Shown: piece after piece, positions 4,446-33,127 of the stretch
How the letters are laid out: each line of letters begins with the position of its first letter
Position numbering within the stretch: position 1 is the stretch's first letter
Assembly: GCA_025360805.1 (NCBI GenBank)
Contig: JANYBK010000175.1
Location: 1 to 40,427 of the forward strand
Direction: 5' to 3'
DNA from: Methanomicrobiales archaeon
GTDB lineage: Archaea; Halobacteriota; Methanomicrobia; Methanomicrobiales; Methanospirillaceae
Length of the DNA: 40,427 nt
The notes under the pieces: model-generated
What the model was told of the DNA's origin: nothing
The model's input: only the letters and a program-made list of their open reading frames with translations
Databases searched by the model: none
Translations under genes and position numbers: made by a program

Positions 4446-6377
4446 TTATATGCCGTCTTTTTTTATCTGGATAGAAACAACTCTTCGGAATGGGAACTCA
4501 GAATATTTTTGTTTCCCTCTCCAGAGATTATGCCCCTCGGCAGAGAGGAAATATGTTTCAACATCGTCTTTCAATTGATTTAGTGTTGTATCAAATCCGG
4601 GTAATAAATGATGTTCATTTAAAATCAATCGGATCTTTTCATCATGCTCTTTTGCACCGTTTCCCTGTATGACATGATCGACACAATGAATTGAAAAACC
4701 ATCGGGCTTTAAAATTCGTCGTACCCCATTAAAAACTTCAGGAATATTTTCATTGGGTATATGCTCTAAAACAGAAATTGAATATACGCAATCATATGAT
4801 CCCTCATCCAGCAGGTTTATGCCATCCTCAAAATAATTTTTAATAATTGTAATATGTGGATATTGTTTTTTAAAATATTCATATTCAACCGGACCATTCC
4901 CCGTCCCGTCGTATGGATCAATTATTGTTACGTCGTACCCGAGTTTATGTAAAAAATGTGCAACCTGGGGCTCTCCTGCACCAATCTCTATTAATTTTCC
5001 CCCAAATGGTATTGTAGCAATTATCTCTTTTACCATCCAGGGTCTCTGGACATTTTTTAAATCACCATTCGAATTACAGATATCCCTAAAAGTTTCGACA
5101 CTGTCACAAAAATCTCTTACAGTAGCATAACTCAAATTGTCTTTTGCATAATCCTTATATTTTCCATATAAATTGCTATGACGACTAAAAGCCTCTTTGT
5201 TTGGTACAATGTGACCTCGTATATCTTTGTAAAATGCTTCGAGTTTCTTTGTATTTTTTTCAATATCAAATTCCAGTTTAGCAAACTCCCGCCCCATGCA
5301 GGCAATACGTGTAGCCAGACCTTTATCATTCGCTAAAATCTTCACTTTTTCCATAATATCGATTGCATCCCCTTTGTCAAGAAGTAAAGCCTGTTCAGAA
5401 TTCTTTATAAATCGCCCTAAATTGGCATTCGGAAGAATTACTGGTTTACCCATGAAGAAAAATTCCGGTAATTTTGAAGGCAATCGATAGTCATTGAATC
5501 TGTCTGCTCTGCCCGGCTGTATTAAAAAATCAGAAATGCCCAACACAGAAGAGATCTTTTGATGAGAAACAAAACCCAGTTCAATTGAATATTGATGTGC
5601 CCAATCACTGTCATCGCCTAAAAAAGGAACAAAATCTCTTCCCGTGCGAATCAATTTTGCAGGTATCCCGTCACGGTTTAGTAACGCGACTGCCAGATAT
5701 AAACTTCGCACTTCTTTGGCATTTGAGGAATGCACATTTCCTGTGTAACATATTACAATATCCGTCTCCTCAATTCCAAGGTCATGTCGTAAATTTTTAT
5801 CAATTACATCCGCATGAAAACGTGAAGTATCGATTCCAGGCCATAACACCAGATATTTTTTATCTTTTGGGATAAAGTCAACGAGTGTATCCATAATGAC
5901 TGTTACCCCATCTGCAGCATTCAAAAATTCCCGGTAAAAGACAGGATGCGATGCGGTTTCCGGAACAATTTCATTTAATTTCTCGATAGATAATGATCTC
6001 AATTTGTCGATTGGAAGCGACAAAATATTTTCAAGAATTAATTCTTCATTATCTTCAAGATGAATAATTAACGTGCATTTAAGTTTTTTTAACAATTCCA
6101 TGCACTGTTTCCGAACAATCTCTCTCGGGGTCCATGCATGAATAATATCAGGCTCTTTGCCGTTTTTGAATAATTTTTTAAAATTCTGTAGCTCGGAGAA
6201 TTCTGCAGGAGTATACAATACTTCCCCACCGATCGCATCATATAATGAATTTTTATTGACAGGTACTGCAATACAACAATCGTTTCCTCTCCTGACTAAA
6301 TTATTCGCAAAATTATGGATTTGTATCGCGCTATTACTCGTAAAATCATGATAGGTGACAAATAAAATGTTTAACAT
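4446..6377 (-). CDS. Fusion protein: N-terminal GT4-type glycosyltransferase plus C-terminal class I SAM methyltransferase
   Basis: 643 aa; GT-B-like N-terminal half (LWPGIDTSRFHAD, LPSKLPEFFFMGKPVILPNANLG); C-terminal GGKLIEIGAGEPQVAHFLHKLGYDVTIIDPYDG and YDCVYSISVLEHIPNE methyltransferase motifs. Start overlaps the end of the upstream gene. Confidence 0.8.
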   Translation of the reverse strand: MLNILFVTYHDFTSNSAIQIHNFANNLVRRGNDCCIAVPVNKNSLYDAIGGEVLYTPAEFSELQNFKKLFKNGKEPDIIHAWTPREIVRKQCMELLKKLKCTLIIHLEDNEELILENILSLPIDKLRSLSIEKLNEIVPETASHPVFYREFLNAADGVTVIMDTLVDFIPKDKKYLVLWPGIDTSRFHADVIDKNLRHDLGIEETDIVICYTGNVHSSNAKEVRSLYLAVALLNRDGIPAKLIRTGRDFVPFLGDDSDWAHQYSIELGFVSHQKISSVLGISDFLIQPGRADRFNDYRLPSKLPEFFFMGKPVILPNANLGRFIKNSEQALLLDKGDAIDIMEKVKILANDKGLATRIACMGREFAKLEFDIEKNTKKLEAFYKDIRGHIVPNKEAFSRHSNLYGKYKDYAKDNLSYATVRDFCDSVETFRDICNSNGDLKNVQRPWMVKEIIATIPFGGKLIEIGAGEPQVAHFLHKLGYDVTIIDPYDGTGNGPVEYEYFKKQYPHITIIKNYFEDGINLLDEGSYDCVYSISVLEHIPNENIPEVFNGVRRILKPDGFSIHCVDHVIQGNGAKEHDEKIRLILNEHHLLPGFDTTLNQLKDDVETYFLSAEGHNLWRGKQKYSEFPFRRVVSIQIKKDGI

Positions 6378-9300
6378 GGATTATCCCTTTTTTCCTTTAT
6401 CTTGTAGCCCGTGGAACCCAATCCGTAATTTGCCAGATCAAAATTGCAATTATAATACCGATCTCCTTTTTTGATCAGCTCTTCCCATTGATCCAATAAC
6501 AAATTTCTATCAACTAAATTATACTGGGTTATATCCCGTGTTGAACACTCGTAATGCGTGATAATTACCCGGGGATTAAAAATGATCCTATAGCCGTTTG
6601 AAATAAATTTCAAACATAAATCAACGTCCTGGTAAATAATCGAATAATGTTCGTTAAATCCGTAAAGTTCAAGAAATACCGATTTTTTAACCATCATACA
6701 CGCAGCGGTAATAGCGGAAACTTCTCTGGCGCAGAGTAACGATCCTGCATAACCGTCACAATCCATGGGGTAATCTCTCATAATATGGTCGGCAGTGCCG
6801 CGGAACCCAAGAACAACGCCTGCATGTTGTACGGTATTATTGGGAAATACCAATAGAGGTCCAACTGCGGCTACATCTGGTTGTTCAGCATAGTATAATA
6901 AAAAATCAATCCAGTTTTTTGATTGGATTTGCGTATCATTATTTAAAAAAACCAGGTATTCACCATTGGCATTTTTTGCACCAACGTTATTTATTTTCGA
7001 AAAATTAAATGGCTCATTAAACAAAATTTTTTTGCAGGGAAATGAATCAAGTATCCTTTTTGCGTCCTCATTTGTTGTATTATTATCCATAATAATTACT
7101 TCAAAATTAGGATAAGACGTAAGTTCGTAGATACTTTTTAGACAGCGTTCAATTAATTCCGGTTTATCCTTCGTCGGAATAATAATACTTACTAATGGAA
7201 AATCTGCTCGTGGCAGCGGGGTGATTAACACCCTGTGGGGAATATGTCCTGCCGATGCAATGGCGTTTAAGCTAAGTCTCTTTAAATGAGAATTTACGGC
7301 ATTTACTTGTTTTTCACTGATATTTCCTTTTGAATCGGAGCTCGATGCGATGCTCCCTTCAATCTTCCTCCAGTGATAGAGAAGTTTAGGGATATGATAG
7401 ATATTTTTTGTATTTTCAGATAATCGCAACATGAATTCATAATCCTGTACAAAATCAAATTTTTTATCCAGAAGGGAAATTTTTTCTGCAAGTGACCGTC
7501 TTACCGTAAGTAAATGCCCCACATACATAACACCCCTGAAATATTCAGGGGACCAGTCTGGCTTAAAAAACGGTTCGCACAAGTCACCATTTTCTGAAAG
7601 TTTATCTTCATCGCTGTAAATTATATCCGCATCCGGATGTTCATTTAAGAATTTTACCACTTCAAAAAGGGCATCTTTTGGAATTGCATCGTCATTATCC
7701 AGAAGTGTGATAAATTCCCCGGTTGCCATTTTTATTGCATTGTTGGTTGTTTCACTAATCCCGGAATTTTTTTCATTAAATTCGATCCGTATCCTGGGAT
7801 CAGAACCATAATAACTTTTTAAAGTATCAGAAACATGTGATTTTGTGCTGGCATCATCAACAAGACATAATTCCCAATTCTCATAAATTTGTTCCAGAAC
7901 GGAATCAATACAAAATTTCAGCCATTTCTCATCGACATTGTAAACTGGTGTGATAATCGAAAGTTTTGGCAGATAGGTGAATTGTGTGATCTTTTCACGG
8001 ATCTCCGGAATATTTTCCGATGTAAATTCGCAGCGCTCCGAGTAAACATCCGCTGGATTTTGACCACGGACTGTGGTTGTTACGCGGTTTTTAAAAATGT
8101 GGAAATATTTTTTCAGAGAAGACACGGTAGTATTTGTTTTGAATTCATTGTGCGTGTTTCTCACTTTATATCTATTAAAATAATTACGCATCCGGTTCAG
8201 CCCAAGTTCATAATATTTTCTTCTTTGTGTGTTTTCTGCAAGGATTCTTCCGACAATTTTGTAATGGAATTTCATTGTTAATTGCCATACAATGCTTGTT
8301 TCAATGCCCGCGATCTTTTGTTCCAGGGAAAGAATGTATGCTGACTTTTCCGCTAGTTGCGAATCTTTGGCAGATATTACCTGATCAAGTTCCTGGATAT
8401 GAGCCGTTCCTTCCAGAACCTGTGTATGCTCGTTCGCGAGTGCGGTTTCCAGGGATTGCACATTTTCAGTTAACCCATATATGTTTTCATTCAACCCATG
8501 GATTTGCTGAACCTTGTCTGTTATTGTGTGTTCCAGGGATTGTACCTGGGTTGCCATGACCGTGATTTGTTGTTCTTTAGAAGCGAGAGTCTGGTAGAGG
8601 TAATTAACGTGATTGTTAGTTTCCGTGATTTGTTGTTCTTTAGAAGCGAGAGTCTGGTAGAGGTAATTAACGTGATTGTTAATATCCGTGATTTGTTGTT
8701 CTTTAGACGCGAGAGTCTGGTTGATGTTAATTACCTGAGCCCTCATTTCATCAATCTGCTCATTAACGGAATACGGAGAGGGCGATCCAGGGAAATAGGT
8801 TTGCTCCTTTCCAGAAACGAACTCCTGAAAAAGTGCCTCGAACTGAAAATTTTCAGTTAACCGGTGTTCGGAATATTGTGGATATATGTCCTGAAGCATC
8901 TCAATGATAAATAAATTTTTATTTTTATTTTTGAAGAACGGACCGATTTTTTCGAAAATATGGTATACGTTTCGGAATAAGATCAAATCCGCAGGAAGCG
9001 GTTCTTTTGACAGCCACTTTTTATCAATAAAATTAAATGTATTTTCAGGACTAACGATAATATTCCAGAATGTATAATCAATTGCTTCCCCATTCACCAG
9101 AGGATAACCTTCAGGATCTGTTATCCCAAGGGAATACGTACGTAACAATTCAGCATGTAAATCTTTTAGGATCTGTTTTAAATTAGATTCCGGGGATTTC
9201 TTAAATACCGCAGAAAGGATGTCGGAGCTCAAGAGCCTGCCCAGAACTAGTTCGTTATCCTGTAATGCAAATTCAATCTTACCCTCATTCACAATCGGTG

Positions 9301-10450
9301 GCGAATTAAAAATATGAGCACGATGCACGAGATATTTTTTTTCTGTATTTGCATCCGAAAAGTTTTTGCTCAAGGTAATTGTGTGATGAAATTTTAACTG
9401 GAAATTATCATTATTTGAATATTTTTTAATTAACCAATCAACAGACAAACGAACGTTTTTTGATTTCGTTGCTAATATCACAAAAGAATTTGAGAACTGC
9501 CACAACAACCCGGAATCGGTAATCGATGACATGAACAATGAATCGGGAAACAAATTGAGTTGTTTTACGAAATAATCCTCAAATGGTGTCCGAATCCAGT
9601 TCTGAGGATATAACGATATAACTTCAGAATTTTCAGGAATTATCGTTTCAGTTAGTTTGTAATCCGGAAAGACATGATAAAACTGGTTATTAATAAAGCC
9701 GGATTGGTGAATTATCGATTCAATCTCGTTTCTGGAAAATGTCACCGGTGTTTTGTCAGGATACCCGATTATTCCTTCAAATTCTTTTCCGGTATGATCC
9801 TCTTTACACCCGGAAAAATATTTTGCACCAAACTTATTTTCAATTGCGACAACGAGAATTCCGTTTTCATTCAATGCGCCATTAAGCCGGGTCAAAAGAG
9901 AAGAACACGCTTCTTTTGGATCGGCGTGTTCTGTATCATATAAGGGTGTATACTCAAGTGAACCTATCAGGATAATGAGATCATACTTTTTATCAAAGCC
10001 GGAATTGAGCAGGTTCCCGCAATAAACCTTCACATTATCCAGATCTTTTGTCCGGTAGCGGGTGATGAGGGCTCTTTGAGTATTTCCTTCCAGTGCATCA
10101 ACGCTGTTGAAATGCTCACCAAGCCACCGGGTAATCGCCCCACACCCGGATCCAATCTCCAGTACATTTGCAGACTTGGGGAAAATTTCTTGTATTGCCT
10201 CAAGAAAATTGATCCGTTTATTCGAAAAATGATATCGGGAAGGCCAGTCTTTGATATATTGTTTGAACTCCTGGGAATACGATGACAGGTCTTTTACTTT
10301 TTTTAACGATTCTAAAATGTATTCTTCCCCGCCATCAGTGTAATCAGTGGTAAGATTATCGGGATGTGTATAGATATTGCGTTCCTGATCAAAAATAAAC
10401 CGGCTTATGTTTATTTGAGGATAGTCTTTTTTTAAAGGCGTATTTTCCAT
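6371..10450 (-). CDS. Giant multidomain glycan enzyme: SAM methyltransferase, kinase-like region, coiled coil, two GT2 glycosyltransferase domains
   Basis: 1359 aa; VLEIGSGCGAITRWLGEHF methyltransferase motif I; AIDYTFWNIIV...FNFIDKKW kinase-like motif; long Q/E/N-rich heptad region with tandem repeats; GT2 domains beginning KLSIITPVYNVDEKWLKFCIDSVLEQ (with IIYSDEDK) and LVSIIIPTKDKPELIERCLKSI (with FLNNDTQ). Confidence 0.85.
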   Translation of the reverse strand: MENTPLKKDYPQINISRFIFDQERNIYTHPDNLTTDYTDGGEEYILESLKKVKDLSSYSQEFKQYIKDWPSRYHFSNKRINFLEAIQEIFPKSANVLEIGSGCGAITRWLGEHFNSVDALEGNTQRALITRYRTKDLDNVKVYCGNLLNSGFDKKYDLIILIGSLEYTPLYDTEHADPKEACSSLLTRLNGALNENGILVVAIENKFGAKYFSGCKEDHTGKEFEGIIGYPDKTPVTFSRNEIESIIHQSGFINNQFYHVFPDYKLTETIIPENSEVISLYPQNWIRTPFEDYFVKQLNLFPDSLFMSSITDSGLLWQFSNSFVILATKSKNVRLSVDWLIKKYSNNDNFQLKFHHTITLSKNFSDANTEKKYLVHRAHIFNSPPIVNEGKIEFALQDNELVLGRLLSSDILSAVFKKSPESNLKQILKDLHAELLRTYSLGITDPEGYPLVNGEAIDYTFWNIIVSPENTFNFIDKKWLSKEPLPADLILFRNVYHIFEKIGPFFKNKNKNLFIIEMLQDIYPQYSEHRLTENFQFEALFQEFVSGKEQTYFPGSPSPYSVNEQIDEMRAQVININQTLASKEQQITDINNHVNYLYQTLASKEQQITETNNHVNYLYQTLASKEQQITVMATQVQSLEHTITDKVQQIHGLNENIYGLTENVQSLETALANEHTQVLEGTAHIQELDQVISAKDSQLAEKSAYILSLEQKIAGIETSIVWQLTMKFHYKIVGRILAENTQRRKYYELGLNRMRNYFNRYKVRNTHNEFKTNTTVSSLKKYFHIFKNRVTTTVRGQNPADVYSERCEFTSENIPEIREKITQFTYLPKLSIITPVYNVDEKWLKFCIDSVLEQIYENWELCLVDDASTKSHVSDTLKSYYGSDPRIRIEFNEKNSGISETTNNAIKMATGEFITLLDNDDAIPKDALFEVVKFLNEHPDADIIYSDEDKLSENGDLCEPFFKPDWSPEYFRGVMYVGHLLTVRRSLAEKISLLDKKFDFVQDYEFMLRLSENTKNIYHIPKLLYHWRKIEGSIASSSDSKGNISEKQVNAVNSHLKRLSLNAIASAGHIPHRVLITPLPRADFPLVSIIIPTKDKPELIERCLKSIYELTSYPNFEVIIMDNNTTNEDAKRILDSFPCKKILFNEPFNFSKINNVGAKNANGEYLVFLNNDTQIQSKNWIDFLLYYAEQPDVAAVGPLLVFPNNTVQHAGVVLGFRGTADHIMRDYPMDCDGYAGSLLCAREVSAITAACMMVKKSVFLELYGFNEHYSIIYQDVDLCLKFISNGYRIIFNPRVIITHYECSTRDITQYNLVDRNLLLDQWEELIKKGDRYYNCNFDLANYGLGSTGYKIKEKRDNPC
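8562..8750. repeat. Tandem 63-bp repeat, three units (two near-identical, one diverged), coding for coiled coil
   Basis: Units 8562-8624 and 8625-8687 differ at 2 of 63 positions; the third unit 8688-8750 is partly conserved. Encodes YQTLASKEQQITDINNHVNYL-type 21-aa units. Confidence 0.95.
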
Positions 10451-10529
10451 TTTTCATCCCCGAATAGTATCTCCACGCTATGAAAAGAAAGACTATACTA
10501 GTATTATTTGTGTATCTTAGAATATGTGG

Positions 10530-12296
10530 TCATGATTCATATTTGATTTCTTTTACCGAGGATTCAAGATCCACAATCCCCACCATCAGGTCTCTCTTTT
10601 CGACCCTGAAGATCAGGCAGTCATACCGGCGATCGAGCACTTCAATTTCGTTATTGGAATGAACAATTACAAGACCGGCATTGATCGAGTACGTCCCAGA
10701 ATTAATTTTTAAGGATTGGGAAAACTCAACAATATAATGCCCATCTCTTTTTTTATCACTCAAATCCAGATGCTGCCATTTGGTATTGGTTCCGTAGATA
10801 TCACAAAATTTATTTTTAAATGTACAGCCAATGGTCAGATTTTCCCTGATATCTTCATGCAGTAAAAAATGGATCCGGACAATTGCAATGTCCCCTGAAT
10901 TAAAAATAGTTGTACGGTTAAGGTTTTCATCCATCAGTTCTACGCGAGTGATCTCGCCGCGTTTATTCCCAAATCGTTCTTCACCGGAAGTGTAAACCTC
11001 GGGCAATGTATCTTCTGACGAAGTTGTATTTACAGTATGAGTCTCGATTATCTCTTCCATCTTTACAATCTTTGCCCATCCCCACGCACTCCACGCATAA
11101 CTCAGGTCATCTCCGGACCCGGAAGTACTAAAAATAATAGAAACACTTTTTTTAGAAAACTGTTCCAATGGAATCATAAAGTTATGCCAGCCCTTATCCC
11201 CAATATTTCGCTTTGGCTGAAGTACGCGGGAAAAGACATTTTCTGTTTTCCCTTCACAGAGAATCTCAATATCAAACTTAACCCCCTGCGGAATTTTGTC
11301 CCACACAAAGGGCATGATCCCGATCGCAAATGCAAGTGACTGGCCCGGTTCGATGGTAACTGAGTACGTAATTGTTGACGGGGCATGAGCAAAGATTATC
11401 TTGCGGGGGGTGGAATTAATCTCAATTGCCTGTTCAATTACAGGTACTAATGGCGCGCTGATAATTTTTGCCTCTTGTAAGTTCTGGATAAAACTATATA
11501 CCGTACCGTACCGTTCAGTTGGCATCTCCCCATGCTCGATCAGGTTACCTTCTGTATATGCACGCTCACGTTCGGTGATCAGGGCATAATATTTATTGAC
11601 CACATAATTCGGATCCCCCCGCTCTATGATCCGTCCCCCGTCAAGGAGTAGCGCAGAATTGCAGAGATTTCGTACCGCTTCAGTGTCATGCCCCACATAA
11701 AGGATGGTCTTTCCTGCCATCTGCATCTCACGGATCTTCCGGAAACACCGGTGCTGGAAGATGGCATCCCCAACAGCAAGGGCTTCGTCAACAATGAGGA
11801 TCTCAGCATCCACATGCACCGCAACAGAGAATGCGAGCCTGACTGTCATACCTGTTGAATAGGTGCGGAGAGGCTGGTTGATAAAATCCCCGAGTTCGGA
11901 GAACCGGATGATCTCATCAAACCGATCGTCAATCTGCTGCTTGGAAAGTCCCATGATTGAACCGTACATGTAGACATTATCCCGACCAGAAAATTCCGGG
12001 TGAAACCCGGAACCCAGTTCAAGAATTGCCGAGACTTTTCCAGCAATCTCAAAAGAACCTTCACTCGGTTCAAGAACCCCGGCAAGAATGCTTAAAAGTG
12101 TGCTTTTCCCCGAACCATTCTGCCCAAGAATCCCTAAAGTAGTGCCGCTTGGAATCTCAAATGAAATATCTTTTAATGCCCAGAAATCGGTGTGGTGGGA
12201 AACTTTACCCAGACTTAAGTATTCAAGAACCCGTCTGCCCGGTGAGCCGAACAGTTTGAACTTTTTCCCCAGGTTGTGTACCGCAATTGCAATCAC
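10530..12296 (-). CDS. wzt: ABC transporter ATP-binding protein, Wzt-like polysaccharide exporter with extended C-terminal substrate-binding region
   Basis: 588 aa; Walker A GILGQNGSGKSTLL, ABC signature TYSTGMTVRLAFSVAV, Walker B ILIVDEALAVGD; C-terminal Wzt-C-like beta-rich region. 4-bp overlap with the permease gene. Confidence 0.9.
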   Translation of the reverse strand: MIAIAVHNLGKKFKLFGSPGRRVLEYLSLGKVSHHTDFWALKDISFEIPSGTTLGILGQNGSGKSTLLSILAGVLEPSEGSFEIAGKVSAILELGSGFHPEFSGRDNVYMYGSIMGLSKQQIDDRFDEIIRFSELGDFINQPLRTYSTGMTVRLAFSVAVHVDAEILIVDEALAVGDAIFQHRCFRKIREMQMAGKTILYVGHDTEAVRNLCNSALLLDGGRIIERGDPNYVVNKYYALITERERAYTEGNLIEHGEMPTERYGTVYSFIQNLQEAKIISAPLVPVIEQAIEINSTPRKIIFAHAPSTITYSVTIEPGQSLAFAIGIMPFVWDKIPQGVKFDIEILCEGKTENVFSRVLQPKRNIGDKGWHNFMIPLEQFSKKSVSIIFSTSGSGDDLSYAWSAWGWAKIVKMEEIIETHTVNTTSSEDTLPEVYTSGEERFGNKRGEITRVELMDENLNRTTIFNSGDIAIVRIHFLLHEDIRENLTIGCTFKNKFCDIYGTNTKWQHLDLSDKKRDGHYIVEFSQSLKINSGTYSINAGLVIVHSNNEIEVLDRRYDCLIFRVEKRDLMVGIVDLESSVKEIKYES

Positions 12297-13075
12297 AGGA
12301 GTTCACCAAACCCGCGTTTTGTTTTTTGAAAGAACCAGATGCTGATCACAAATAATACAACAGAAAAAATCAGGAAGGGCACAATAATTTCAAGCTCTGG
12401 AATCTTGCCGTAAAACAATACATCCCGATAGATCTCCAGCATGTAATAACCAGGATTCAGTTTCATTATCCATTGAAAATTCTCAGGAATGGAATTGATC
12501 GTATATGCAATCGGTGTAGCCCAGAACCAGATCATAAAAAGCGCTCCAAGGATTTGGGGGATGTCCCGGAAATATACCGCGCCGCTTGACAGGAAAAAAG
12601 CCAGTGACAGGGTAAATATCATCTGGAGGATGATCGCAATAGGAAGGAGAAGAATAAAGATCGTAGGTGCACCTTTCAGGATTAAAAACAGAATGAAAAA
12701 AATTCCGAGCCCGATAAATAGGTTCACAAATTCTGATAGTGTCGTATAGATCGGAAAAATTTCACTGGGGAACGGGACTTTTTTAATATAATTTTTGTTG
12801 TCGATGATCGAGCGCGAAGCCCTTAAAACAGATTCCTGGAATGTCAGCCAGGGAAGAAACCCGGCTGCAAAATACAATACAAAGTCCCAGATACTGGTGG
12901 ACCCGGGGAGGCGCACCTTCAGGAATACGCCAAAGACAATGACATACACAACAAGAGTGATGATAGGGTTAATAATGGACCAGTACAACCCCAGAAGAGA
13001 TCCAACGTATTTCGAGGAGATATCCCGTTTGATAAAATTCCAGATCAAGCCCCGGTATTCAAAGATGGAATTCAT
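12293..13075 (-). CDS. wzm: ABC-2 type transporter permease, Wzm-like polysaccharide exporter
   Basis: 260 aa; six hydrophobic segments; RDISSKYVGSLLGLYWSIINPIITLVVYVIVFG and MIWFWATPIAYTINSIP are typical of the O-antigen/teichoic-acid exporter family. Confidence 0.9.
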   Translation of the reverse strand: MNSIFEYRGLIWNFIKRDISSKYVGSLLGLYWSIINPIITLVVYVIVFGVFLKVRLPGSTSIWDFVLYFAAGFLPWLTFQESVLRASRSIIDNKNYIKKVPFPSEIFPIYTTLSEFVNLFIGLGIFFILFLILKGAPTIFILLLPIAIILQMIFTLSLAFFLSSGAVYFRDIPQILGALFMIWFWATPIAYTINSIPENFQWIMKLNPGYYMLEIYRDVLFYGKIPELEIIVPFLIFSVVLFVISIWFFQKTKRGFGELL

Positions 13076-13159
13076 TTTATTAATCTCAACTGTTGGATCT
13101 AACTTATACTTCCGTTTTCATAAATTAATCTTTAATCAGAACGGGCACACAAGTTGTTT

Positions 13160-13897
13160 TTAATTGGATCCATCTTTTTCTGCCACGATAATATCCTGAT
13201 AACTCAAAAAATTAGTTCTCCAACACCATGCCCCATAATGAATCGGTTCAATAATTGTAAATCCATGTTTTTTGTACAGATTTCTGATTATATCTTCTTC
13301 GTATGCAACTGCGCTTTCAGGATTGTTTTTATCTACAGCGCGATATCCGTTGAAAACATACTGGAAATCCTGTGAAGTCTGTTTTGCCGCAATAAACCGA
13401 TGTGATTCTTCATTTAATAAAAAGAATGTTATCAAACATCTCCCATTCTTTTTCAGAACCCGCGTAATTTCAGAAAAATAATTTTCCATGTCTTTAGGTA
13501 ACATATGGGTAAATACTGATGTAAGGTAAATAAAATCAAAGGATTCGTTATCATATGGGAATTTATAGTCTGAAGCTTGAACTGTGCCATTCTGGTTATA
13601 TGACTGATTAACGATTTCAGCTAATTGAAACTGAAAATTGGGATGTCTGGTTGAAATATTCTTTTGACACCAGTCGATACCCATCGATACAATATCAAAA
13701 CCTTCATAACTGCCTGTTTTATCCAAATACTCGGTTAATGGAATTGCCATCCGTCCTATCCCACACCCGATATCCAGGACTCTTGCATTCGGCTTTAAAT
13801 TTCCAAGTTCAATAAAATATTTTAAAAAGTCATTACCTATTTTTTTAAAATCGCCAGCGCCAACAAAAATCATTTCTTCTGGAGGTATCAGATCCAT
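13160..13897 (-). CDS. Class I SAM-dependent methyltransferase
   Basis: 245 aa; ARVLDIGCGIGRMAIPLTEYL motif I and FDFIYLTSVFTHMLP. Confidence 0.85.
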   Translation of the reverse strand: MDLIPPEEMIFVGAGDFKKIGNDFLKYFIELGNLKPNARVLDIGCGIGRMAIPLTEYLDKTGSYEGFDIVSMGIDWCQKNISTRHPNFQFQLAEIVNQSYNQNGTVQASDYKFPYDNESFDFIYLTSVFTHMLPKDMENYFSEITRVLKKNGRCLITFFLLNEESHRFIAAKQTSQDFQYVFNGYRAVDKNNPESAVAYEEDIIRNLYKKHGFTIIEPIHYGAWCWRTNFLSYQDIIVAEKDGSN

Positions 13898-14512: not shown

Positions 14513-15559
14513 ATGGCAAAAAAAGCATTCATCACGGGAATTACCGGACAAGATGGATCGTATCTGGCCGAACTTTTACTCTCCAAAGGCTATGAAGTCC
14601 ATGGTCTTATCAGAAGATCATCGACATTCAACACAAGCCGGATTGACCAGATATACATTGACCCCCATGACCCTCATGCCAGGATGTTTCTTCATTATGG
14701 AGATCTTTCCGATTCGGAGCAGATCGCAAATATCATGCACAACTTTCAGCCGGACGAAGTGTATCATCTCGGTGCCCAGAGTCACGTCCGGGTGAGCTTT
14801 GAGACCCCGGAATATACCGGCAATGTGACGGCACTCGGTACTACCCGGCTTCTTGAGGCTTTGCGAAGGAGCAATTCCGGGATAAAGTTTTACCAGGCAT
14901 CATCGAGTGAGATGTTTGGATCTGCGCCTCCTCCGCAAAATGAAGATACCCTGTTCCAGCCCCGCAGTCCCTATGCCTGCGCTAAACTATATTCCTACTG
15001 GATGACCCGGAATTATCGTGAAGGGTACAAGATGTTTGCGGCAAATGGTATCCTTTTTAATCATGAGTCCCCCCGGCGTGGAGAGACATTCGTCACCCGA
15101 AAAATCACCCGGGGCATTGCCAGAATTCTCGCAAAAAAGGAACAATACCTGTATCTCGGAAATCTTGATGCCCGACGTGACTGGGGTTTCGCACCCGAGT
15201 ATGTGGAATGTATGTGGCAGGTCCTCCAGCAGAAAGAAGCGGATGATTACGTGATCGGCATTGGGGAAACCCATTCGGTGAAGGAATTCTTAAACGCAGC
15301 GTTCTCGTATGTCGGGCTCGATGTTGACGAGCATGTTAAAATTGACCCGAAGTACTTCCGGCCTACTGAAGTTGAAGTGCTCATATCAAACCCGGAAAAA
15401 TCTCGGAAGAAGCTCGGGTGGAAACCCAGGATCCGGTTTGACGATCTGGTGAAGATTATGATGGATGCTGACATGCGAGCGATTGGGCTTGCTCCTGTTG
15501 GGGAAGGGGACAAGATACTGCAAAAAGCGTTCCCAAAGAAATGGTGGAAAGGGGATTAG
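14513..15559 (+). CDS. gmd: GDP-mannose 4,6-dehydratase
   Basis: 348 aa; [81 protein letters not shown] are characteristic. Confidence 0.97.
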
Positions 15560-15577
15560 TCCAACCATCATTTTATA

Positions 15578-16669
15578 ATGAAGACCTTTTGTTTTTATGT
15601 CAGTGATTATGGCTATGGCCATGCTACCCGCTCCATAGCGCTGATACGGAAAATTCTGTCCCAGTATCCTGATTCCCGGATTATTGTGAAATCCGAAGGT
15701 CCGTTCGATCTCCTCTCAAAATCTTTGCAGGATCCCCGCATATCGGTAATCCGGTACCGTAATGACATTTCTGTTCCGCTTCTGCCTCCTACAGAAGCTG
15801 TCGATGTTGATAAGACACGGATTCTTTTAACAGAATGGCAGGAATCATGGCCTGATTATATTGAACGAGAGTTACGGTTCTGTAAGGAACATGGTGTTGA
15901 TCTAATCATATCTGATATCGCCCCGCAGCCATTTCTTGTTGCAGATATGCTGGGCATTCCTTCTGTGGGAATTTCCAATTTCTCATGGGACACAATCTAC
16001 CAGCATCTCGTTCCTGAAATGACCGGATTCATTAAAACCTTGCAATCTGCGTATTCCACTGCAACTCTTGCCTGCATCCTTCCGTTTCATGTCCCGATGA
16101 AAGCATTTAAAAAAAAAGTTCCTGTCAGTCTCCTGTCACGCGATATTTCAATTCCCCGGAATCTTATGAGAGAGCAACTGGGAATGAATGAGGATGATAT
16201 CGTTGTTTTCTTTAACCCCCGGTGTCCGGTTGATCAGCTGGGCCCGGATTTTTTCAATACCATTTCCCACGAATCTGTCAGGATTATCGTGCCATCCGCA
16301 TTTTCATCCCGGAATTCTCAAATCATCCCTCTTCCCGCAAATGAGACAGAGTCCCAGAACTGGATCGCAATGTGCGATCTTGTGGTAACCCGGTGCGGTT
16401 ACAGCACGGTATCTGAAGCAGTCCAGTCAAAAGTCCCGCTCGTTGTCTGGGAGCGCCCGGGTTTTATCGAAGATACTGCGATTGTCGCAGATATCCAGAG
16501 GCTGGGTCTGGGCAGATCATATGATTACTCACAGATCCGTTCCCTTGACTGGATAGCAGAAATACCTGAACTGTCCTGTTACAAACAACATTATGTGCAC
16601 ATAGATCAGAATTATTCAAACAGCGGATCTAAAGATATCCTCTCTTGCCTGCAGGAGTACATTTCATGA
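15578..16669 (+). CDS. Glycosyltransferase-like protein (GT28/MurG-like fold)
   Basis: 363 aa; N-terminal [20 protein letters not shown]-terminal [30 protein letters not shown] resembles the UDP-sugar transferase donor site. ATGA overlap with the next gene. Confidence 0.7.
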
Positions 16670-17607
16670 CATTCTGGGAAAACAAACGGATCCTTATCAC
16701 CGGGGGTGGCGGTTTTCTTGGCTCTCACCTTGTCAAACAACTGGTGAAGCGGGGCGTTCAAAAGGACCAGTTATTTATTCCCCGCAGCAGCGATCTTGAC
16801 CTCCGTACATGGGAGAACTGTGTTAAAGCGGTAAAGGGCAGGGATATTGTCATCCATCTTGCGGCTAAAGTCGGAGGTATCGGGTTCAACCAAAACTATC
16901 CCGGCGAACTTTTCTATGACAATGCGATTATGGGGATCCAGCTCATTGAAGCAGCCCGGCAGGAGTGTGTGGAGAAATGTGTAATCCTCGGTACGGTCTG
17001 TGCGTACCCGAAATTCACCCCGGTTCCTTTCAGCGAGGATGAACTCTGGAATGGATATCCGGAAGAGACCAATGCATCTTACGGCATTGCAAAGAAAGCG
17101 CTCCTTGTCCAGGCTCAGGCATATCGCCAGCAGTATGGGTTCAACGCGATCTATCTCCTGCCGGTCAATCTCTACGGACCGGGTGACAATTTCAACCCGG
17201 AGAGTTCCCACGTAATCCCGGCACTGATCAAGAAATTTGTTGACGCAGTACGCGAGAAGAAACCTTACGTTGATGTATGGGGTACCGGTACCGCATCGCG
17301 CGAGTTCCTTTATGTCGAAGATGCAGCCCGTGCCATTATCCTTGCCACCGAACGGTACAATAAGCCGGACCCGGTTAACCTAGGTGCCGGGAAGGAGATC
17401 TCTATTCGGGATCTTGTCACCATCATCAAGGAGCAGACGGGTTTTACCGGTGAGATCCACTGGGACACAACAAGACCCGATGGGCAGCCACGGCGGTGTC
17501 TTGTCACATCCCGGGCTGAGAAGGAGTTCGGGTTTGTAGCTCAGGTGCCATTCGATGATGGGCTGAGGCAGACAGTGGAGTGGTTTATTGAACAGACTCG
17601 CGGATAG
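16666..17607 (+). CDS. fcl: GDP-L-fucose synthase (GDP-4-keto-6-deoxymannose epimerase/reductase)
   Basis: [75 protein letters not shown]. Start placed at 16666 (ATGA overlap) rather than the ORF-track 16645. Confidence 0.95.
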
Positions 17608-20456: not shown

Positions 20457-21179
20457 TCATCTCGAAGTCTGCGTTTTTCTGGACTCCTGCACCATCACGC
20501 TCGCATGGAGCAGGCTGTCAAATGTACCGGCATCGCTCCAGAAACCTTTCAGGAGTGAAAAGGTCATCGCGCTTTTCTGGATATATGCATTATTCACATC
20601 GGTGATCTCAAGTTCTCCGCGCCCGGAAGGTTTTAATTCCTGAATAATCCGGAACACCTCGGAATCATAGATATAAAGCCCAGTCACTGCGAGATTTGAT
20701 TTTGGCTGCTTTGGTTTTTCTTCAATACCGATAATATGATCCCCCGATATTTCTGCAACCCCGAATCTTTGGGCATCCGGAACCTCTTTTAAGAAAATAC
20801 GGGCTCCGGATTTAAAGGATTGCACAGCATCCTTTACGGGATCTTCAAAGATATTGTCACCGAGAATCACTGTAACTGAATCATGATCTGCCCAGCGTCT
20901 GGCAAGTCCGAGAGCCTGAGCGATCCCCCCGGCGCCTTCCTGAATTTCATACGACAACCGGACTCCCATGTCCGAACCGGATCCCAGCAATTCAAGAAAA
21001 TGTCCGACATGCCCTCGCCCGGAGACGATTAAAATGTCATCAATACCGGCATTGACCAGCGTATTCAATGGGTAACATATCATCGGTTTGTCATATACAG
21101 GTAACAAATGTTTATTCGTGACTTTTGTTAGCGGGAAGAGCCGGGATCCGGTTCCCCCTGCAAGAATAACTCCTTTCAT
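20457..21179 (-). CDS. rmlA: Glucose-1-phosphate thymidylyltransferase
   Basis: 240 aa; MKGVILAGGTGSRLFPLTKVTNKHLLPVYDKPMI and VILGDNIFED; located with rmlB/C/D. Confidence 0.93.
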   Translation of the reverse strand: MKGVILAGGTGSRLFPLTKVTNKHLLPVYDKPMICYPLNTLVNAGIDDILIVSGRGHVGHFLELLGSGSDMGVRLSYEIQEGAGGIAQALGLARRWADHDSVTVILGDNIFEDPVKDAVQSFKSGARIFLKEVPDAQRFGVAEISGDHIIGIEEKPKQPKSNLAVTGLYIYDSEVFRIIQELKPSGRGELEITDVNNAYIQKSAMTFSLLKGFWSDAGTFDSLLHASVMVQESRKTQTSR

Positions 21180-21991
21180 AATGTTCTCTCCTTTAAGTAT
21201 GTTTTTAGCGCCTCCTTCCAGGGACGCATCGGTGTAGTCTTAGTATTGGTAAGAACTGAATAGGCAGGACGTTTCGCTTTTCTTGGATACTCTGCTGTAC
21301 TGCAAGGTACGACATTGGGAATTATCGCACGGGCAAAATCATACCAGGAACAAATACCGTCATTTGTTATATGATAAATTCCCGGTTGGGACTGGGCAAT
21401 ATCGACAGTTTTCTGTGCAAGATCCGCTGTAAAGGTGGGTTTGCCGAACTGATCATTGACAACACGAACTTGTGGCATCTCTGATGAGAGCCTGAGCATC
21501 GTCTCGACAAAATTTTTCCCGTGTTTTCCAAAAAGCCATGACGTACGGATGATCCGGTAATCTGCCATGTTTTCCTGGATATTTTTCTCGCCAAGCAATT
21601 TCGATTCACCATATACATTGATGGGATGTGGAACGTCATCTTCCCGATATGACTTTTTAGTGCCATCAAAAACATAATCCGAACTGTATTGGATCAATAC
21701 CGCACCAGTGTCCCGGCATGCACGGGAGATATGAACAAGAGAATCTCCGTTGACTGCAAACGCCAGGTCCCGGTGGTCCTCACACCCATCAACATCAGTA
21801 TATCCAGAAGCGTTGATCACTAGTGTAGGGTTCAGGTTATGGATTGCTTTAGCAATTTTCCCGGCATCGGTAATATCAAGATCACGACCCCTGAATTCTG
21901 CATGAGGAAAGGCCCTCTGGAGATCATGCCCGAGCATGCCATAAGCACCAAGAATGAGCACTTTTTTCAGCGGAGTAATGGCTGCCACCAC
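21176..21991 (-). CDS. rmlD: dTDP-4-dehydrorhamnose reductase
   Basis: 271 aa; KVLILGAYGMLGHDLQ, INASGYTDVDGCEDHRDLAFAVNG, YSSDYVFDGTKKSYREDD, NVYGESKLLGE. Confidence 0.95.
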   Translation of the reverse strand: MVAAITPLKKVLILGAYGMLGHDLQRAFPHAEFRGRDLDITDAGKIAKAIHNLNPTLVINASGYTDVDGCEDHRDLAFAVNGDSLVHISRACRDTGAVLIQYSSDYVFDGTKKSYREDDVPHPINVYGESKLLGEKNIQENMADYRIIRTSWLFGKHGKNFVETMLRLSSEMPQVRVVNDQFGKPTFTADLAQKTVDIAQSQPGIYHITNDGICSWYDFARAIIPNVVPCSTAEYPRKAKRPAYSVLTNTKTTPMRPWKEALKTYLKERTL

Positions 21992-22929
21992 CCCTCATGC
22001 TGAACATACCAGTTCACCGTCTCTTTGAGTGCTGTCTCAAATGATGTCTGCGTTTTCCAACCCATTGCACGCAGTTTTGACGAATCCAGAGAATATCGCC
22101 AGTCATGACCGGGACGATCTTTTACAAATTCGATACTGGAGGAATCCTTATTAAGGATTTTTAAGATCTCGTACGTAATATCGAGATTCGTCTTTTCATT
22201 GTCGCTGCCGATGTTATAGATCTCCCCGTCTGAACCATGATGGAGCACGAAATCGATTGCACGACAATGATCCAGCACATAGATCCAGTCGCGAATATTT
22301 TTCCCGGTTCCATAGACCGGAACTTTCTTGCCTTTGAGAAGGTTCGTCACAAAAAACGGGATCAGTTTTTCCGGATACTGGAACGGTCCATAATTGTTGG
22401 TACACCTTGTTATGATGACCGGCAACCCATGAGTAATAAAAAAAGCACGCGCCAGCAGATCTGATGCCGCCTTGCTTGCTGAATACGGGCTGGATGGATT
22501 CAGCAGATCTGTCTCTTTAAATGATCCCGTTGCTGCACTCCCATATACTTCATCCGTGGAGATATGAATAAACCGTGAACATTTGTGGCGGAGTGCAGAA
22601 TCAAGAAGTGTCTGGGTTCCCAGCACATTTGTCGTCACAAATGCAGATGAATCATGAATGGAACGATCAACGTGGCTCTCTGCGGCGAAATGAACTACCG
22701 TGTCGATTGCATGGTGTGAAAATACAGATTCAACAATTTGTTGATCGCAGATGTCCCCTTTCACAAAAAAATATCGTGGATTCTTTTCAATGTCGACAAG
22801 ATTTGCCGGGTTTCCCGCATAGGTTATCGCATCAAGATTGGTGATCGTGCAATCCGGATGCACATTGAGCATATGCCGGATAAAATTGCTGCCGATAAAT
22901 CCAAGACCGCCCGTAACCAGAAGTTTCAA
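21967..22929 (-). CDS. rmlB: dTDP-glucose 4,6-dehydratase
   Basis: 320 aa; LLVTGGLGFIGSNFIRHML, HFAAESHVDRSIHDSSAFVTTNVLGTQTLLD, HISTDEVYGS, PYSASKAASDLLARAF, TRCTNNYGPFQYPEKLIP. Confidence 0.97.
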   Translation of the reverse strand: MKLLVTGGLGFIGSNFIRHMLNVHPDCTITNLDAITYAGNPANLVDIEKNPRYFFVKGDICDQQIVESVFSHHAIDTVVHFAAESHVDRSIHDSSAFVTTNVLGTQTLLDSALRHKCSRFIHISTDEVYGSAATGSFKETDLLNPSSPYSASKAASDLLARAFFITHGLPVIITRCTNNYGPFQYPEKLIPFFVTNLLKGKKVPVYGTGKNIRDWIYVLDHCRAIDFVLHHGSDGEIYNIGSDNEKTNLDITYEILKILNKDSSSIEFVKDRPGHDWRYSLDSSKLRAMGWKTQTSFETALKETVNWYVQHEGWWQPLLR

Positions 22930-22950
22930 ACGATTCCCCTCCAGAAAAGA

Positions 22951-23427
22951 TTATCCATGTTTTAATCCCGGTACAAGTCCCCAGTCATAGGGAATTTCCG
23001 GAGAATCAGGGGGGAGACGGTACTCATCAGGATCTTTATAATTATATGGCATTGTGGGGACGCTTATAAAAAATGCAGTCTCTGTTCCGATTGCCTTAAA
23101 CCCATGATATACACCTGGAGGCACACTGATAAGAACCGGATTTTTCTCACCGACAAAAATTTCCATAAGCGCCATGTAAGTGGGGGAATCTTTTCTGGCA
23201 TCATACAAAGCGACTTTCATGTTTCCTTTCACACAGGTAAAATTATCTGTCTGTATCTTGTGGTAATGCCATCCTTTGACTACGTTGGGGTATGCCGTGC
23301 TGAGATACACCTGACCGAATTTTTCAAAAATAGGATCATCGCACCGCAGGATTTCCATGAGCCAGCCCCGCTCATCAGAAATAACCCGCAGGTTTTTTAA
23401 AACAACACCCTCAATGGATTTGTCCAT
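22951..23427 (-). CDS. rmlC: dTDP-4-dehydrorhamnose 3,5-epimerase family protein
   Basis: 158 aa; DERGWLMEILRCDD, VVKGWHYHKIQTDNFTCVKGNMKVALYDAR, VPPGVYHGFKAIG. Confidence 0.88.
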   Translation of the reverse strand: MDKSIEGVVLKNLRVISDERGWLMEILRCDDPIFEKFGQVYLSTAYPNVVKGWHYHKIQTDNFTCVKGNMKVALYDARKDSPTYMALMEIFVGEKNPVLISVPPGVYHGFKAIGTETAFFISVPTMPYNYKDPDEYRLPPDSPEIPYDWGLVPGLKHG

Positions 23428-27259: not shown

Positions 27260-29926
27260 TCATGAAGCAGGTCTCCCCGCCAAAACATCGTCTTCAGTTA
27301 CCGTAATATACCGGGATGTACCGACAATATGGTAAGGTCCGGTTGCCCTGACCCCATAATGATTTCCTGTTGTTGAATAGGGTACGACAAATTCCCCGTT
27401 TATGCTTTCCTGTCGGTAAACAAATCCCCGGCCTGTATTTGTCAGGATCGGCACCTCTATGATCCCATCTCCCGTAATATGGGCCCCGTTGACATACTCA
27501 AATATTTTTACGTATTTTATATCCGGCAGTGTTGTGGGAGAAGATTCCGGAAATACCGTGACCGAGGCATTATTAACAGACTCGTGAATTAGCCGGTAAT
27601 GCTGCAATGCCGGGACGATTTCGATCGGTTCATCCGGCTTATCAGAAAACAGATCTGAATATTCCTGAGGCTTTAAATCTGAACCTTCACGTATGATTGG
27701 TGTGTCACTGGTGATGTGTGAACTATTTATGGGGCGCTCCTGGGTGATGACCCGTGCATACCCGTTCACATCCCCAGCAGTTTCTCCGGCAGCAGGTACC
27801 TGGCGTATGACATAATTTGTATATTGTACAGATTCTGGCACGGTCATCGAACCATCATAGATATGCAATCGGACGACCATTGTCTGGAAATATCCATTCA
27901 CATATCGGTGAACCTTAAGCAGGTGAGATGAATCGCCTGTGTCCGGTATCATGAACCATTTTATGTATGAGGAAATATCTACAGAACCGCTCTGCCATGG
28001 AACAAGATTGGTGAAGGTATCCACAGCCATATTCGAATCCGTGATAACATATTTCCCTCCCAGTTTTTTTAGGATCGGGTTAGCTTTGGACTCATTTGTG
28101 CTCAGGAAATAAGCAGCACCCCCGTTGGCACCTGCAAGATTGTCCTGAAACGGATTTGTTATCGGGATGCGGTGCGAGAAGACTGTGATCCAGTGCCCGG
28201 CATCCCAGATAGCCAGAATTCCGTAGGATTGTGAAGGGTACGTAAAACCACTGGCATCATAGGATTGATAGTAATCAATGCCTGTATCCGGGCTGTTTGA
28301 TCCCAGCCATTTCAGCGATTCGGTCCAGTCAGGAGATAATTTATGTACCGGTGTTTCCATTACAAAACTGATATCCTGTGAAATAGAAACCACAACAAAT
28401 GCAGCCGTTGTAATAATAACGATAATGAGAAGAATATTCTTAAAGGATTCATCCTTATTTGCCGGGTTGCGCATTGGTTGTTTTTGCTCATTTTTTTTAT
28501 TCTTTTTTGGTATGGGTCTTAAGGACTCATCCACGGGTATATCCGTTGATATCCCATGGGACGGAAAAAGCAGGGATGCAACCGATGCAAAGCGTTGTCG
28601 TAGTTTTTCCTCTCTCATAGCAAGTGAGTCTGCAATACAGATCGCGGCAAGCAATGCAATATTGACCGTAAAAAAATACTGGAACCGCTGGTACTGGATG
28701 GTCACAAGCAGCATGACCACAGACCATACCATAATAAAAACTGTGTTACACTCCCTCTTTTTTATCAGTGCGTAACCTACGAACAAAAATCCGCCAAATG
28801 CAAGGATCAAGGCAAAATTAAAATTTGCCCATGCATTTGGCAGGGTCCAGGGTAATGTTTCTACAATGCTGACAGCATATGTTGAAGAACCAAATACCAG
28901 TCCAAGCGCCTGTTTACTCACCGCATTGAGCAACGGATTTGTCTGAATGAGAAAAATGCCCCCGATGGCAATAACTGCAAGACAGCCAGTGTATAGCCAT
29001 TTTTTGCCGGAACAACCCTTGCTAATGAGTGTAAGTACTAACGTCTCAACGATAAGTGCATAATGCACATACACAACCCCGATTGAGTATTGCGTTATAG
29101 AAGTCCCGGTTTGTTTGATTCCAAAGAGTAAAAGCAAAACAGATGTTACTAACAATAAGATTATATTGACAATGAGAAGATAGTCAGAGTTGTTCCCCTG
29201 GTAATAATCCAGAATGTACTGGACTGCTGTGTAAATGGCAATGACCAGCAACACCAGGATGACTGTTGTCGATGAGAGCAGCGCAAGGAAGAGGGAAATA
29301 CCGGCTCCGGTTGAAAAGAGAATCGGGACCAAAAATCCTGTACCTTTTTTAATATCTACTGGATTTTTTTGTGTATAATCGAGTGTAGAACAATAGATGA
29401 GGATAAAAATCGTGCTGAATAATACTTCAGCCACATGGTGATCAGTCCAGCCATACGATGTTATAGAAAAATAATACAGCGATATTATTGCGATCATGCC
29501 TGCAGCTGCGAGGCCGGCACACCCGCTCCACAATCGTTTCCCGATATAGTACATTACGGGGACCATCATCATTGCCATGAGCGGCACTACCCATCCGGAC
29601 ATAAAAAAGATTGCATCCCTTGTAGTTGCGCCGGTAATGAGACAGATAATCGCGGCAATGAACGGAAGAAGCGGACCCCAGTCGAGGATTTTTCCTTCCG
29701 GAAATGCGGTCATGGGATCAAACCAGTTATACTGGGGAAAATGATTCACCATCACTTCGATCTGTCGCAAAGTGTAGTAACTGTCCGTATCGTGGAGATA
29801 GAGAAAACCTGTGTCATGAATGAATAGTGCAGGAATGGCTCTTAAGGCCATGGCGAGTACCATGAAAAACAACAATACTGCACTAACTAAGTATTGATGT
29901 TTTGTAAATCTCTTAAAAAAATCCAT
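27260..29926 (-). CDS. aglB: Archaeal oligosaccharyltransferase (STT3/AglB)
   Basis: 888 aa; multi-TM N-terminal part with FLYLHDTDSYYTLRQIEVMVNHFPQYNWFDPMTAFPEG; C-terminal soluble domain with SYGILAIWDAGHWITVFSHRIPITNPFQ at the WWDxG position. Confidence 0.92.
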   Translation of the reverse strand: MDFFKRFTKHQYLVSAVLLFFMVLAMALRAIPALFIHDTGFLYLHDTDSYYTLRQIEVMVNHFPQYNWFDPMTAFPEGKILDWGPLLPFIAAIICLITGATTRDAIFFMSGWVVPLMAMMMVPVMYYIGKRLWSGCAGLAAAGMIAIISLYYFSITSYGWTDHHVAEVLFSTIFILIYCSTLDYTQKNPVDIKKGTGFLVPILFSTGAGISLFLALLSSTTVILVLLVIAIYTAVQYILDYYQGNNSDYLLIVNIILLLVTSVLLLLFGIKQTGTSITQYSIGVVYVHYALIVETLVLTLISKGCSGKKWLYTGCLAVIAIGGIFLIQTNPLLNAVSKQALGLVFGSSTYAVSIVETLPWTLPNAWANFNFALILAFGGFLFVGYALIKKRECNTVFIMVWSVVMLLVTIQYQRFQYFFTVNIALLAAICIADSLAMREEKLRQRFASVASLLFPSHGISTDIPVDESLRPIPKKNKKNEQKQPMRNPANKDESFKNILLIIVIITTAAFVVVSISQDISFVMETPVHKLSPDWTESLKWLGSNSPDTGIDYYQSYDASGFTYPSQSYGILAIWDAGHWITVFSHRIPITNPFQDNLAGANGGAAYFLSTNESKANPILKKLGGKYVITDSNMAVDTFTNLVPWQSGSVDISSYIKWFMIPDTGDSSHLLKVHRYVNGYFQTMVVRLHIYDGSMTVPESVQYTNYVIRQVPAAGETAGDVNGYARVITQERPINSSHITSDTPIIREGSDLKPQEYSDLFSDKPDEPIEIVPALQHYRLIHESVNNASVTVFPESSPTTLPDIKYVKIFEYVNGAHITGDGIIEVPILTNTGRGFVYRQESINGEFVVPYSTTGNHYGVRATGPYHIVGTSRYITVTEDDVLAGRPAS

Positions 29927-32540: not shown

Positions 32541-33127
32541 GCTGGAGGATTATTCCAAAAACATATAATTCTTCTTTTTTGCACTGCTGGAACATTCAGG
32601 TTATATAAACCGGTGCAAAAACCTGTTCGGACTGGCAATGGATTATACTTTATCATCCATACATTTGCGACAGCTGAAATCCATCAATGATAACTTTAGG
32701 TTGTGTTAACGTTAGAACAGTCGCAATTCATGTAACTGAATATATGGCGGTTCACCCACTGGCGGATTAATATATATTAACTTATGCAATACTCTAAATT
32801 CATGTATAACTTATGTTGTTGTAGTGAAATATTTCAGTGCGCGACATATACCCCATTCACATTTTCAAGTGCAAAGATCTATGAACCGGATCGGGTAAGT
32901 TTTGGAATGCAAAATCTTATTTTTTCTGTCTTAAAATCCAAACGGGGCTCATTCAGGTCATTAATGTCCATAAAAAAAAGACCACAAAGGATATATTAGC
33001 TCTTTAACAAATACTGTTCCATATTCCGTCCAATCGGAGTATGGGGCTCGTAGAACTGTTATTCGGCATCTGTCGAAACTGTTCGCGGCTTGGAATGTAG
33101 ATGTAAACTTTGGAGGAACTTAAACAT

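Follow-up and report, generated by a model that had tools for sequence, protein, structure and literature searches.

The 1359-amino acid product of a gene at 6371..10450 (minus strand, ATG at 10450) in a methanogen contig is, judged by its sequence, an archaeal member of the protein family typified by ORF6 of Klebsiella pneumoniae O7, and is not a WbdD by descent. The gene, established from its ORF call and homologues with exactly the coordinates and length of the initial annotation, lies in the 40,427 nt stretch that we analysed (hereafter the window: positions 1 to 40,427 of contig JANYBK010000175.1, assembly GCA_025360805.1, from a Methanomicrobiales archaeon of the Methanospirillaceae). 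We think it likely that the protein is a chain-terminating glycan polymerase of the ORF6-O7 type, which would cap its product with methylphosphate, use its coiled coil as a ruler and deliver the chain to Wzm/Wzt for export. The direct basis for this is the domain order, the homology, invariant catalytic residues, a kinase-like fold, a coil in a single register and the wzm-wzt operon; from these we infer the methylphosphate chemistry, the identity of the sugar, the ruler function and cap-dependent export.

Gene neighbourhood and domain organisation

The terminator gene is located downstream in the wzm-wzt operon, 79 nt from wzt, in agreement with the earlier description of it as directly downstream of these genes. 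wzm (12293..13075, minus strand) encodes an ABC-2 permease and overlaps by 4 nt with wzt (10530..12296, minus strand), which by Pfam encodes an ABC ATPase with a C-terminal Wzt_C carbohydrate-binding domain. A separate SAM methyltransferase gene (13160..13897, minus strand; Pfam) is found upstream of wzm, and on the other side a GT4 plus methyltransferase gene (4446..6377, minus strand) shares 7 nt with the terminator gene. This overlap, the strand of the terminator gene and the 63-bp repeats in its coil are absent from the initial annotation. The Wzt product also has an extra middle domain (about residues 250-430, without a match in a Pfam search) between ATPase and Wzt_C, and this domain is present in the archaeal relatives L007, L013 and L015 too.

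Within the terminator, Pfam recognised a weak methyltransferase at about residues 96-200 and two strong GT2 domains at 831-946 and 1087-1304, and assigned no family to residues 210-560. Our domain limits, all on the minus strand, are: a SAM methyltransferase at residues 1-330 (9461..10450; Pfam, alignment and residue numbering, and Foldseek matches to SAM methyltransferases); a protein-kinase-like domain at 331-555 (8786..9460); a coiled coil at 562-722 (8285..8767); GT2 domain a at 831-1065 (7256..7960; PF00535); and GT2 domain b at 1086-1340 (6431..7195; PF13641/PF00535). The order of methyltransferase, kinase-like region, coil and two GT2 domains, first proposed from the letters of the DNA, is thereby borne out by Pfam, AlphaFold and heptad analysis.

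Relationship to ORF6 of the Klebsiella O7 system

ORF6 of K. pneumoniae O7 comprises a methyltransferase, an unannotated 223-aa kinase, a coiled coil and two GT2 modules; in vitro it adds phosphate, and then methyl, onto terminal rhamnose, and a D441A substitution abolishes its kinase activity (PMC11231755). The methanogen protein shares with it the N-terminal methyltransferase, a kinase that is unrecognisable by sequence, the coil, two C-terminal GT2 domains and wzm-wzt in the cluster. We made this comparison via the residues reported in PMC11231755 and via stand-in homologues. By alignment and numbering, Y37, Y73, G100, G102, E121 and Y167 of the methanogen protein correspond to the SAM-binding residues Y28, Y66, G91, G93, E112 and Y158 of ORF6-O7, and Pseudomonas asturiensis P0003 (1457 aa, obtained via tblastn) has all six ORF6-O7 residues at identical numbers. 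This Pseudomonas protein has the domain layout of the methanogen protein and likewise the gene order wzm-wzt-terminator; the two are 35% identical over 324 aa in the methyltransferase and 31% identical over 722 aa covering the coil and tandem GT2s.

There are also differences from the prototype. An Ig-like CBM between kinase and coil, which is a feature of the prototype and is not stated to define the ORF6-O7 family, is absent from the methanogen protein: in the model the final helix of the kinase stops at 546 and that of the coil begins at 561. The host is archaeal, the coil has 63-bp repeats, and no candidate for the ribofuranosyltransferase partner (ORF7) was recognised on inspection of the window. 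A methanogen homologue is already known: PMC11231755 reports counterparts of both ORF6 and ORF7 in Methanoculleus marisnigri, whose surface polysaccharide has the backbone of O7, and terminator-ruler-polymerase fusions are likewise known in bacteria. By analogy with ORF6-O7, methylphosphate capping may well be the chemistry of the protein described here.

The kinase-like domain

The catalytic loop lies at 9023..9079 (minus strand), where the D-x4-N...D signature noticed earlier proved to be D458, N463 and D476. D458 is the counterpart of the catalytic D441 of ORF6-O7; it and the metal-binding N463 are invariant in 75/75 aligned family members, and the metal-binding D476 is kept in 74/75. W479 is also invariant in this alignment and present in the methanogen protein. 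The initial annotation had suspected an inactive kinase, with A in place of the H of HxD, a suspicion which fails: the 75 members mostly have Y, F, A, L or S at this position with no conserved His, and since the whole family lacks it while D458 and N463 are invariant, its absence is no sign of inactivity.

The AlphaFold model of residues 326-560 has a mean pLDDT of 91, and when the kinase domain alone was compared with the PDB, the best 50 fold matches were all kinases, headed by archaeal RIO2 (E 0.009, probability 0.92, TM about 0.34). Because the best matches are kinases and yet TM-scores are low, the middle domain is, as modelled, a confidently predicted but remote protein-kinase-like fold; a fold of this kind had been anticipated for the region and is what the model and its PDB matches contain. 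The only sensible PDB match of a kinase profile was the choline kinase catalytic loop (E 0.24), and a search of a viral fold library gave weak kinase matches at best. The weakness of the RIO2 match counts against the ORF6-O7-type reading.

A different role for this domain would be that it does not cap the glycan at all but serves a structural or other purpose, leaving a terminator that only methylates. Such terminators exist in O8 WbdD (PMC3482155) and WsaE (PMC2943079), and E478, nearly invariant family-wide, is K in the methanogen protein. We nonetheless regard this as very unlikely, as the protein keeps D458, N463, D476 and W479, of which D458, N463 and W479 are invariant across the family, and the Asp corresponding to D458 is essential for phosphorylation in ORF6-O7 (PMC11231755).

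Comparison with WbdD and other terminators

The protein was initially described as WbdD-like, and in its domain order, its link to an exporter and its analogy to a terminator with a coil ruler the description stands. WbdD of E. coli O9a (4azs, 4ax8; PMC3482155) has the same order of methyltransferase, kinase and coil, the same D-x3-W-N-x12-D spacing, and acts as a terminator within an ABC-exporter pathway. It differs in that structure-aligned identity is 12% and that its kinase is unmatched by profile, so that the description does not extend to family; moreover WbdD has no GTs, and instead has a membrane-associated helix and a site recruiting the separate WbdA, whereas the GT2s of the methanogen protein are fused. 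When the model of residues 1-745 was compared with PDB folds, WbdD ranked 4-7 (alignments of 544-574 columns, 12-13% identity) and was the only methyltransferase-kinase among the best 50 matches. It was missing from the best 50 fold matches of the kinase domain alone, was not found at E<=10 by the kinase profile search of the PDB and did not appear among the matches listed when the PDB was searched by sequence and by profile. From this combination we conclude that the methanogen protein shares domain order and fold class with WbdD yet belongs to another family, and the O7 authors' own view of ORF6 relative to WbdD, similar but of a different family, agrees (PMC11231755).

The fusion of capping, ruler and transferase modules, pointed out in the initial annotation, is not new: O7 ORF6, WbbB and WsaE (the last without a described kinase) all have it. 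WbbB of K. pneumoniae O12, as outlined in PMC11231755, also unites a terminator, a coil ruler and two GTs for polymerisation within a single polypeptide, but its terminator is a Kdo glycosyltransferase where the N-terminus of our protein is a SAM methyltransferase. WsaE of Geobacillus stearothermophilus (PMC2943079) resembles our protein in having an N-terminal methyltransferase and two GT domains in a single protein, in the overlapping gene order wzm-wzt-wsaE and in coming from an S-layer organism; it differs in its 2-O-methyl cap and in that no kinase is described for it, while the methanogen protein has a kinase-like domain.

The coiled coil and its DNA repeats

The earlier estimate of a coiled coil of about 150 aa proved accurate: residues 562-722 form 23 heptads in one register, modelled as long helices, with an a/d hydrophobic contrast of 0.74 (mean of 0.11 and maximum of 0.26 in 2000 shuffles) and no proline in 161 residues. 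Such a coil would be about 23-24 nm long. Part of it is encoded by an in-frame tandem repeat of 63 bp (8560..8733, minus strand; 21 aa or 3 heptads, 2.7 copies, 94% matches by TRF), of which copies 1 and 2 differ at 3/63 bases.

Repeats of this kind recur in the coils of other terminators, in frame and with periods of 21, 42, 63 or 84 bp (TRF), in another methanogen family (84 bp, 97%), a Micrarchaeote (21 bp, 100%), cyanobacteria, Nitrosomonas, Nitrosospira, Clostridium and two actinobacteria. The Pseudomonas repeat is of 54 bp, or 18 aa, which is one heptad plus one hendecad, and a same-genus contig stops inside an exact 84-bp repeat. In-frame coil tandem repeats, mostly multiples of 21 bp, were seen at L013, L039, L028, L029, L079, L085, L064, L088, L048 and L057, and the coils of close homologues were seen to differ by whole repeat units.

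Across 44 close-homologue pairs there are 71 internal indels of >=5 aa, and every one of them lies in the stretch that follows the kinase and precedes the first GT (or the ORF end), the independent events being much fewer than 71 because the pairs overlap; none of this size was found in the methyltransferase-kinase part or the GT domains. Their lengths are mostly 7, 18, 36 or 54 aa, and at least one recurring 7-aa indel is a linker event beside the GT domain and not a coil unit. Length variation is in general smaller in coiled coils than in other regions (PMC5082667). A coil built of heptad-multiple in-frame DNA repeats, with indels confined between kinase and GT, may be a new observation, and we found no report of natural repeat-unit variation in these rulers in the open-licence literature.

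In O9a, according to the review in PMC5082667, a longer coil gives a longer chain and a shorter coil a shorter one. The coil may alternatively be an oligomerisation or spacing element only, with chain length decided by other means. Polymerase and exporter might compete, for instance, as they do in Klebsiella O2a, where chain length varies with the proportion of transporter to biosynthesis complex (PMC11231755); our literature search found no coil-length experiment on an ORF6-O7-family member. We think this unlikely here, given that the coil sits between the capping and polymerising modules, as it does in O9a and O12 where a ruler has been shown, so far as PMC11231755 recounts them, and that indels of >=5 aa fall only between kinase and GT, mostly as whole repeat units. 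If the coil is a ruler, we would tentatively suggest, at somewhat less than even chances, that it evolves by whole, phase-preserving steps, such that gain or loss of a repeat unit shifts glycan length in nature, in bacteria and methanogens alike.

The glycan and its export

The window contains rmlA, rmlD, rmlB and rmlC for dTDP-L-rhamnose synthesis (20457..23427, minus strand; the matches to rmlB and rmlD exceed the curated cut-off, those to rmlA and rmlC fall short of it), and with this full set a rhamnose-containing glycan would be a reasonable guess. In addition, gmd and fcl-like genes for a GDP-deoxyhexose surround an MJ1255-like GT (14513..17607, plus strand).

We propose that the two C-terminal GT2 domains elongate a lipid-linked polymer, probably with rhamnose, while the 23-heptad coil separates them by about 23 nm from the N-terminal kinase and methyltransferase. 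Once a chain had grown long enough for its non-reducing end to reach these two domains, that end would receive a phosphate and then a methyl group, and growth would stop. Recognition of the cap would then fall to Wzt_C on the neighbouring ABC transporter, and Wzm/Wzt would export the chain; in characterised systems it is a CBM on the transporter's nucleotide-binding subunit that recognises the cap (PMC11231755).

The product could instead be a glycan that AglB handles for the S-layer protein, and not a polysaccharide that the ABC transporter exports independently, since the window encodes both AglB (27260-29926) and an S-layer glycoprotein of MEMAR type that carries PGF-CTERM (33110-35863). 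AglB and an S-layer gene are to be expected in this archaeal group regardless, and here they are about 17 kb or more away. Although the wzm-wzt-wsaE route of Geobacillus does supply an S-layer (PMC2943079), PMC11231755 calls the O7-like glycan of M. marisnigri an unknown surface polysaccharide, and we judge an AglB-handled product to be quite improbable.

Distribution and horizontal transfer

A scan of one genome per species gave at least 400 relatives, and the 80 of them that were kept are nearly all bacterial. In archaea the family is rare: it was found in 3 of 397 genomes of the archaeal phylum (E<=1e-20) and in 5 of 232 of the archaeal order. In a quick tree of the methyltransferase domain, the methanogen relatives L007, L013, L015 and L016 group with our protein, and sequences of Methanosarcinales and Micrarchaeota branch at other points among bacteria, giving archaeal rows in three places. 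GC content is 38.6% in the island at 4446-13897 and 46% in the remainder of the window. The distribution of the family, broad in bacteria and patchy in archaea, fits gene transfer; the gene probably reached the methanogen from bacteria, and repeated transfer, though unproven, fits the pattern of tree and GC. Contamination was rejected, as the same contig bears the archaeal AglB and MEMAR-type S-layer genes. For the Citrobacter gene, no near copy was found in E. coli genomes.

Linkage to an ABC exporter, suggested from the single locus, holds for part of the family: the homologue is directly behind wzt in 37 of the roughly 70 cases with enough upstream DNA to be informative, and about half are elsewhere, some of them fused to GT2 domains with no wzt nearby. 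Nor is the fusion universal in archaea. Two close archaeal relatives have a gene not cut by a contig end: in L013 (1-3138), from a methanogen of another family, the ORF of the terminator (701 aa) overlaps a distinct ORF for the GT2, and in L015 the terminator stops soon after the start of the coil. These two genes, and the homologues that are not beside wzt, speak against the ORF6-O7-type reading.

In another archaeal family, the neighbour of a terminator homologue (L014, 1736-3196) is by eye a Wzx-like flippase and not wzm-wzt. A 568-aa relative from this same family (L099, 1000-2706) has lost several conserved methyltransferase residues and keeps the kinase motif.

Implications

Repeat-built coils provide length variants of the putative ruler in nature, and with them the ruler model would be testable without engineered proteins. 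A methanogen cell has no LPS. With a full terminator-ruler-polymerase beside an ABC exporter, and sugar-donor genes in the same window, the methanogen would make an LPS-type length mechanism testable without LPS.
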